From Hippasteria phrygiana (lineage: Eukaryota; Echinodermata; Asteroidea; Valvatida; Goniasteridae): DNA of 64,000 nucleotides. The notes below the pieces were generated by a model. The model saw nothing but the letters and a program-made list of their open reading frames with translations. It ran no database searches and had not been told where the DNA came from. The stretch spans positions 682,001-746,000 of the forward strand of contig JAZGUH010000331.1 in the NCBI GenBank assembly GCA_037893225.1. Reading direction: 5' to 3'. The position numbers were made by a program, and so were the translations under genes. Shown here piece after piece: positions 10,168 through 13,200 of this stretch; within the stretch, counting starts at the first letter, position 1, and each line of letters begins with the position of its first letter.

Positions 10168-10243
10168 ATAAATCGTCTGAGGGACACTGACCAGATGTTT
10201 CAGCAGAACAACTTGACACCCGGCATCGGCGAACTAATCAAAG
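10168..10243 (+). CDS. VMP1: VMP1 exon segment 1a (N-terminus, start ATG 10195)
   Basis: Acceptor TTTTACACATAG ends at 10167. Only one frame is open through the segment. It contains ATG at 10195 and ends ...CTAATCAAAG, where a hAT-like insertion begins. Donor GT at 10244 gives phase 1. The first nine codons before the ATG are open and could be coding if an upstream exon exists. Confidence 0.75.
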
Positions 10244-13200
10244 GTTGGACCGTAACAATTCCCTGATACATTGTACATCGATAATCGTGATATTGAAATG
10301 CCACAATATGGCATCGCGATTCAAAACATTGTATCGCGATACATACACGTAGATCTACAAAATGTACATGTATGCTGCTGAATGTATGATAAAAATAATA
10401 AAATATGCAAAAACTTAGACTTGTAAACATGACCCCCCCCAAAAAAAACACGACATTTCAGTCGTAAGGTTCATATTGCTGTCCAACCCTTTCGCCTGTC
10501 CTCTGCCAAAAATCGGTTTGGACGGGTAAACAAAACATCAAATGTGGAAATGGAGCGTACATGTACATGTAATTTCATTCCTAGGATGCATTCATTTTTA
10601 TATCATGTCTAAATAAAACATTTGCTTGGAAAGTTCAATTGAAAAGGGAATTTTGTTGGGGGTGGTCTTTTATATTATTATTATTATTATTATTATATTT
10701 GTTTTTTGGGGGGGGGGTATTTAAAAAAATTGTTTTTATATGTATCGCAATGTGTATTGTATTGTGACGTAAGTATTGTGACGCAAGTATTGTGATACGT
10801 ATCGTATCGTTAAAAAGTTGTATCGTTACACCCCTAATCAAAGGACCTCGCCAGTCCCAGACCCAGACACCCAGTCCACTGGAATCAGAGGATCACCATG
10901 AGATCCGTGAGTTGCACCGTCTAGAGAGGGAGGAAAGAGCCAAGATTGTCTTGCTGAGGAAACCACTGACAACAATGAAGTACTTCATACTGGAGACATG
11001 GGTCATACTGGTAGGATGGTGTCACCGGTAAGGATCAAGCTGTGTTCACACTGAATTTTTCGTGAAATTTAACCAAGTTAATGATAACATTCCTAATGGT
11101 TGAATCTATTGTTCACATGGGGACTTCTGACATTGTGAAAAATATATCCACACTGTAGGTAGTAACCAAGCTGACAGTGGCATGCATCTCCTGTCCTATC
11201 CTGGTTTGTCATAACATATGATTTTATGTAAAGTTGTCAGTAACATACATTTATATGTTAAGAAGTTTAATAAATAATTTCCAATGCTGTCATAATATCT
11301 GTCATAATATCTGCCATAATATCTATCATCAAAAACTATGGAAGCATATACATTTAGGACACAACCCAAAAAATTTCTGGCCCATTATTTTGCACGGGCG
11401 GATTAATATTCTGCCCAGTTGGATTACTATTCTGCCAGGCTGATTACTATTCTGCCAGGCTGATTACTATTCTGCCAGGCTGATTACTATTCTGCCAGGC
11501 TGATTACTATTCTGCCAGGCTGATTACTATTCTGCCAGGCTGATTACTATTCTGACCAGTTAAATGTATTGGTTAGATGTATTTTGCTATTCCTGTCATC
11601 AGTGCACGTGTAGTCATCACTGTCAACTTTTTTAGTATAATACACCCTGCCAAAATAATAATGCACCCGGGCGAAATAATATTCTGCCTCTCGGGCGAAA
11701 TACATGTAATAATCCACCCAGGTGAAAAAGGAGTCTGCCCAGACGAAATAATGGGCCAGAAGAAACATGGTCATGTCCTAAATACACTTACACTTGTACA
11801 CGTACGTAAAAAACTAAAAAATTAGTGCAGTGCATGAAGAATTGACCAGCTGCCCATGCCATCACTACATGTACAATGTAGGTCACTCTTGCCAGTCCGA
11901 GGTAAAAATAATCATTGGACTTGGGAAAAGTACATGAAACTGTAAGTTAAAATGTAATTGGAATTGAAATGGGAAAAGTACATTGTAACCAGCCTCTCGG
12001 TGAGTTTTACAAAAAAGGTTGAATGCGAATATGGCCTAAGCAACTACTACTAGGAAAGACTACAAACTTATCCACCTTGAATGTAGACTGATCAGTTTGC
12101 TATATAGACATAGATAAAAGCTGTGTTCGCATTGGATTTATGGGGAAACTCACTGATGAGATGATGGCTACTTTGCCCATTTCAAGTCCAGTCTGAACAG
12201 CATTGAATGTCTGTGCTACTTTTCCTCGGGTGATTGTATCTTATGTTCATAACTTCTTTAGCTGCAAAAAAACACTGAAATTCAATAAATGATTACATCG
12301 AAAGAGTATTGAGATTGAAGTGATTGTGCACACACTTCCACCATTGAAGTGTGTTCATTTACATGAATTAGAAAAACATGCAGGTACATGTACATTGTAT
12401 GTGTACATGTATTGCAGCCGCACATTACATGCATGAAGAGTTTTGTCAATACAAGTATTGAAAACAAAGAAGAAAAAGCTTCTATTCTATGCCCAAGACA
12501 AATGCAAGAGTCTGTACAAGAATACTTTTCTTCCTGCAATTCGCACTCAGAAATAAATGTAAATTAGTCCATAAATAATGGGATGTTACAGCTTGTTGAA
12601 AATGTCACATTTTCAAATATTCTTTTTTTTAAAGCAACTGTTCAATTGAAAAGGCTATATCTTCTAATGTGTATGTTTTGGGCTGATGATTTCTTGTTTC
12701 CAGAGATGTGAATTGTGTGTCCTTTGCTGTTTGAGAAAGCAAACTTCAAAATACAGTACACGTACATCAGTGTCAAATGAAGACCTTTATTTCTTCTGAT
12801 TTGTCAGAAGGAATTAATATTTCATTGTGTGAATCCTGGAAATTCAGAGGACACTGTATCATTCATTAGTACACGTACATTCATTATACCTGGGACAGTT
12901 TCACATGCTTGTGGGGTGTTTGAACTTTTGTTAAAGAATACATGTACACTGTACAGAGTAGTATGCAGATTAATGCTTTGAGTGGTGTAGTAAAACTACA
13001 TGTAGCCTCCCAAGGTGATCCATGCAGCATTCTATTTTTCCTGAGGCGAAGCCGAGGGAAAATAGAATGCTGCATGAATCACTGAGGGAGGCTAGTTTTA
13101 CTACACTACGAGATAAAGCAGTCAATATTTGTTTTATAACACCTGTCCCACAGATTCTGCTTGATTTGAGCACTAACTGAAAAATTTCATTTAAATACAA

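Follow-up and report, generated by a model that had tools for sequence, protein, structure and literature searches.

The second coding exon of VMP1 in the sea star Hippasteria phrygiana carries a 592-bp hAT-type MITE between exact target-site duplications, and this insert has probably become a spliceosomal intron that is removed at junction 10243/10844. The insertion appears to be old and probably fixed, and it is most likely handled today as an ordinary VMP1 intron, although other junctions may be used to some extent. Coordinates refer to the window, the whole stretch of 64,000 nucleotides that was analysed (contig JAZGUH010000331.1, positions 682,001 to 746,000), and the VMP1 exons, the insert and its duplications lie on its forward strand.

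Structure of the VMP1 gene

VMP1 is an autophagy gene, and its product is an ER membrane protein. When nt 10244–10843 are removed, coding exon 1, the two pieces of exon 2 and eleven downstream exons assemble into an open frame of 456 aa that reaches its stop at nt 51495. Exon 1 (nt 2656–2742) specifies the start of a SAP domain and ends in the phase 0 donor ATG|gtaaat, and its frame joins that of exon 2. The left piece of exon 2 (nt 10168–10243) completes the SAP domain and continues into a conserved linker (...PGIGELIK) that aligns without gaps to the Asterias rubens protein P0001, while the right piece (nt 10844–11027) ends at the donor CCG|gtaagg. The eleven further coding exons (nt 15790–51495) continue the reading frame: exons 3 to 6 at nt 15790–15880, 18900–19010, 20414–20493 and 25658–25742, the next four at nt 27580–27631, 30142–30230, 32685–32765 and 38052–38168, and the last three at nt 46237–46298, 47877–47979 and 51343–51495. 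All VMP1 exons other than the interrupted one are intact.

The SAP domain (Pfam SAP, 50.7 bits, residues 2–36) is built from exon 1 together with nt 10168–10189 of the left piece. Since it spans both, the left piece is coding and the host of the insert is the second coding exon; an earlier note on this DNA had taken it for the first visible one. The protein search (best 120 of 3232 matches) placed the VMP1 of Asterias rubens at the top with 86% identity, and in the same set PF02037 was found in VMP1 matches from urchins, crinoids, a hemichordate, molluscs, an annelid, a brachiopod and a nemertean; the vertebrate VMP1 proteins in this set were without a SAP domain. SAP domains are usually tied to nucleic-acid binding, and one at the N-terminus of an ER membrane protein such as VMP1 is an odd pairing.

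A product of an H. phrygiana transcript was sought in the same best 120 of 3232 matches, and no protein exceeded 86% identity; a shorter protein query gave one match from five candidates, P0121, and no H. phrygiana transcript. A search of the assembly with the exon 2 protein returned a single locus with two matches flanking the insert (three candidates), and neither another copy of the exon nor one lacking the insert.

Other repeats are present in the introns of the gene. The intron after exon 2 contains a 2.2-kb element (nt 13210–15391) with perfect 25-bp inverted ends, CCGTAATTTTCGGAATATAGGCCGC, and TA on both flanks, as well as five exact tandem copies of a 20-bp unit, CTGATTACTATTCTGCCAGG (nt 11440–11539). 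Another MITE-like stretch, starting with CAGTGTTGGAGT and ending with ACTCCAACATT, is found in a VMP1 intron at nt 20533–21135.

The insert and its target-site duplications

The MITE (nt 10245–10836) begins with TTGGACCGTAAC and ends with GTATCGTTACACCCCTA, and is bounded by two exact 8-bp copies of ATCAAAGG (nt 10237–10244 and 10837–10844). The full direct repeat is 11 bp rather than 8, CTAATCAAAGG (nt 10234–10244 and 10834–10844), because the exon reads CTA ahead of the target and the element itself ends in CCCCTA. The last G of the left duplication and the first base of the element, a T, make up the GT donor, and the AG acceptor (nt 10842–10843) is contained in the right duplication. The earlier note had described the 592-bp element, its duplications and the source of the GT and AG in this way, and the coordinates were verified in the sequence. 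Its claim that removing nt 10244–10843 restores the exon and keeps frame with the eleven downstream exons is likewise borne out by the 456-aa frame, and the predicted intron (600 bases, phase 1) leaves an alignment to Asterias that is free of gaps. If the insert is left in place, the frame meets a stop eight codons past the last shared codon (GWTVTIP, stop).

The proposed origin is as follows. A non-autonomous hAT-type MITE landed in exon 2 of VMP1 at the target ATCAAAGG, and the duplication of the target placed AAAG|G before the first T of the element and again past its last base. The pre-mRNA would thus have gained a GT-AG intron, the removal of which at 10243/10844 would give back the old message exactly, and the insert would then have been kept for a long time to become the present 600-base, phase 1 intron. 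Exact removal needs a target ending in AGG, a trinucleotide that is rare in the coding sequence (24 of 1369 in the VMP1 CDS and 7 of 258 in exon 2), so that an insertion at random would seldom have one but an insertion that survived would. As to the earlier proposal that a hAT-like transposon serves as a VMP1 intron, the hAT-type insertion in the exon and the frame-perfect GT-AG pair both hold, and splicing itself is a prediction. RNA folding of nt 10234–10860 gave z = −2.14, with none of 20 shuffles equally stable, a signal too weak for use.

The MITE family in the genome

The genome assembly (944 Mb, 1285 contigs) was searched with the insert and its duplications, and at least 49 matching stretches were found among the 40 of 247 candidates that were scored, the window copy included. 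The other stretches are 66–94% identical to the window insert, and some copies yield more than one stretch. The right end of the window copy (20 bases) occurs at a minimum of 42 genome sites with at most one mismatch, again counting the window's own, and the reversed control gave none; one base that is absent from the window's right end is common to 40 of the 41 other sites. The terminal inverted repeats of the family read TAGGG[CT]CGTAACGATTC and TAGGGGTGTAACGATACCAC. Examination of 62 loci gave 31 with a pair of ends; four of these proved to be the window copy itself and one duplicated another locus, which left 26 other copies. The 8-bp duplications of these are perfect in 16, have one mismatch in two and two or more in eight, compared with eight of eight matching positions for the window copy. 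End pairs were picked for the best duplication match, and some of the eight mismatched copies are probably wrong pairings; three of the 16 copies with perfect duplications share one target sequence and may represent one event. In the 18 best copies, TAGGG starts 17 of the left ends and 17 of the right ends. By its shared terminal inverted repeats and 8-bp duplications, the insert is classed as a non-autonomous hAT-type MITE.

A separate, young subfamily comprises 15 copies of 1.03–1.14 kb with a median pairwise identity of 97%. The window copy is only 62–65% identical to its members and groups instead with older, shorter copies, the best of which reach 82.5%. When the flanks of 18 other copies were joined, eight gave an open stretch of at least 70 residues across the site, and for seven of these eight no Pfam family was detected at E 0.01. 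The eighth, L049, is a young copy of the family lying within a frame that, by eye, resembles reverse transcriptase. No second host exon split by the family was recognised in this small sample of 18 other copies.

Elsewhere in the assembly, COX1 is present twice on contig C1188 (nt 9684–11024 and 26092–27432), the two copies being 16,408 bases apart and their score equal to that on C1285, a contig of 16,408 bases. The arrangement suggests that C1188 repeats the mitochondrial genome head to tail. Mitochondrial ND2 is most similar to that of other sea stars, reaching at most 74% identity, with Iconaster longimanus, among the best 120 of 7444 matches.

Age of the insertion

A majority sequence was taken from 21 older relatives, after the exclusion of five that were more divergent, and the window copy departs from it at 48 of 398 positions (12.1%). 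Restricting the count to positions with a majority of at least 80% gave 32 differences in 331 (9.7%); by this stricter measure the 21 relatives span 3.0–13.7%, and three of them exceed the window copy. In a tree of 27 segments, the terminal branch of the window copy has a length of 0.148. The mutation rate published for the sea star Acanthaster cf. solaris is 9.13 × 10⁻⁹ per site per generation, with a 2-year generation used in that source, and on this basis the insertion would be very roughly 20–30 million years old, the rate being that of another species and the divergence an upper bound, part of which may predate the insertion. Such divergence is, as judged from these comparisons, well beyond standing variation. 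Together, the divergence of 9.7–14.8% and an exon search that recovered no uninterrupted copy from the assembly make an old, fixed insertion more likely. The earlier note had offered either a young intron or a segregating insertion; as the likeliest reading this was rejected, given the 9.7–12.1% divergence, the terminal branch of 0.148 and an assembly in which no insert-free copy was found.

Comparison with Asterias

The Asterias rubens protein P0001 shows no gap across the insertion site, where GELIKGPQQSQ is one of the two aligned 11-residue stretches, and the exon was presumably uninterrupted before the MITE arrived. The second protein, P0121 (183 aa), comes from an Asterias-like contig of 1815 bp and is identical to Asterias from MFQQNN to WCHR, with no insert. 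Past WCHR it continues into residues that are not those of VMP1, at a point where the spliced Asterias protein reads LWLNRR. The nucleic acid behind it would therefore lack splicing where the next exon ends and yet show no interruption at the position that holds the MITE in H. phrygiana. As judged from the protein letters of one contig, genomic DNA would explain this most simply, and a transcript spliced in part would also be compatible. The contig thus suggests an exon without interruption at this site in an Asterias-like animal.

The 25 residues of the left piece differ from those of Asterias at four positions, and all four changes are conservative. In a neutral simulation (substitutions only, 25 codons) of the time since insertion, changes this few and this mild had a probability of 0.015 at 0.108 substitutions per site and of 0.0024 at 0.148; for a younger insertion the values were 0.046 at 0.08 and 0.15 at 0.05. 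The left piece looks to be still under constraint, a conclusion that would be weaker if the insertion were younger. Just ahead of the insert is the block PGIGELIKG, the counterpart of which in sea urchins is PGIGQLIR.

Splice sites and competing junctions

Splice sites were scored with a matrix made from the 12 other VMP1 introns, a small set, each left out in turn, and with a general prior. The donor of the exact junction scores 2.25 and the acceptor 0.13, both lower than in all 12 other introns (donors 4.6–11.2, acceptors 5.5–14.2). The acceptor context, which the earlier note called weak, is indeed so, and the donor is weak as well. With a sum of 2.38, junction 10243/10844 ranks tenth among 40 in-frame, stop-free pairs. 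Higher sums were obtained for exon 1 joined to the acceptor at nt 10865–10866 (CCCAG|ACA; 10.5, the top pair), exon 1 to 10773 within the MITE (8.04) and 10243 to 10924 (7.59); the duplication GT also pairs with 11014 (5.06) and 10888 (1.03). The right piece holds 19 AGs, and the earlier statement that nearby ones would shift the frame is correct for the four closest on the downstream side (10854, 10860, 10866 and 10874) when paired with the duplication GT. It fails for four others (10888, 10924, 10939 and 11014), which are in frame with that GT, and for the 11 of 19, among them 10854, 10860 and 10866, that are in frame with the donor of exon 1.

The present donor reads AAG|GTTGGA, while the family-type donor AAG|GTAGGG scores 7.75. 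As the ends of the family nearly always start with TAGGG, the new intron probably had AAG|GTAGGG as its donor, a site of good quality, and the donor has apparently deteriorated, unless TT already stood at the start of the source copy. Copy L015 also begins with TT, so the source may have had no A at +3. Loss of the family +3 A would be odd for a donor under selection.

The high sums of the exon 1 pairs raise the question of whether the left piece is bypassed. Exon 1 would then be spliced to the AG at 10854, 10860 or 10866, all in the right piece, or to the one at 10773 close to where the MITE ends. The left piece would be dropped along with the whole MITE or most of it, and a VMP1 of 423–454 aa would be missing the last part of the SAP domain as well as some of the linker. 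These products are in frame and include the two best-scoring pairs of all (10.5 and 8.04, the exact junction having 2.38), a SAP match persists when exon 1 is joined after 10860 (28 of 37 positions, 42.5 bits), and Amphiura X2 (P0005) does wholly without the SAP part. Such splicing would have to pass over the acceptor at 10167 in front of the left piece, which is intact and one of 12 own acceptors with scores of at least 9.7, and use one that scores 3.0 instead. A bypassed piece should also decay, whereas the left piece looks constrained and its PGIGELIKG block is shared with echinoids as PGIGQLIR; we consider the bypass distinctly unlikely. Use of the duplication GT with an in-frame acceptor further downstream (10924, 10888 or 11014), giving a VMP1 shorter by 15–57 residues, is improbable: the pairs with 10924 and 11014 outscore the exact junction (7.59 and 5.06 against 2.38), but with 10924 the ancestral message would not be recovered and 22 of the 27 residues lost are identical to Asterias, and the sum for 10888 is lower (1.03).

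Two further explanations do without regular splicing of the insert. The assembled allele could be segregating or broken, most animals having an empty site, and the single assembly and the weakness of the splice sites today would agree with this; it is nevertheless highly improbable, as a divergence of 9.7–14.8% is far above the diversity expected from the mutation rate and Ne of Acanthaster, the assembly yielded no empty copy and the other exons are intact. Only a very slim chance is given to retention of the insert, in which the 5′ part of the gene would make a short SAP peptide and VMP1 would be expressed from a downstream promoter. The unspliced frame does stop soon past the junction, and SAP-less VMP1 proteins exist in vertebrates and as Amphiura X2 among the matches listed, but no in-frame ATG is present from the insert to the conserved REERAKI block, the next one coming after the block. 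The preferred reading is still that the spliceosome probably uses 10243/10844, wholly or for the most part.

Relationship to known intron gains

Intron gain by transposon insertion is a known mechanism, of which introners are the large version. In maize, exonic insertion of Ds, a hAT element, is said to have been described by Giroux in 1994 as removed by splicing in a mutant allele with transcripts shown; the VMP1 insert is also of hAT type, but it is an old, natural insertion known from genomic sequence. Gains by insertion at protosplice sites have been compiled, with 35 events tabulated from Oryza, Drosophila, Oikopleura and Zea (PMC3443670). As in VMP1, the duplication there provides AG|G on both sides and the message is unchanged. 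The target in those cases is AGGT, whereas VMP1 needs only AGG, the T being added by the first base of the element, and echinoderms are absent from that table row, while the VMP1 case is from a sea star. Across animals and land plants, introners have been reported from just two groups, each of them within the animals (Gozashti 2022, PMC9860276), and the main text of that article has no word starting with hAT, echinoderm or starfish. Like the VMP1 insert, introners are non-autonomous DNA transposons with terminal inverted repeats and a duplication, their splice sites being partly derived from the latter; they form families of several or many introns, whereas VMP1 is a single observed case. A limited look through the literature matches listed turned up no echinoderm intron with an origin by transposon insertion.

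A broader view would be that this hAT family is built for making introns, any exonic target ending in AGG giving AG|GTAGGG...CCCTA-target-AG|G in either orientation and without trace in the message, and that the VMP1 intron is one survivor from a set in an echinoderm introner-like lineage across sea stars; we regard this as unlikely. Intron births in which the element and its duplication are still readable amount to a few single cases in the 2012 table (PMC3443670), and the VMP1 case adds one that is roughly dated, is situated in a conserved gene with one locus found and has a stated junction. The rule of an AGG target combined with a TAGGG-ended element predicts the sites of other such introns. 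The splice sites look to be in poorer shape today than when the intron arose, a point relevant to the way in which new introns persist.
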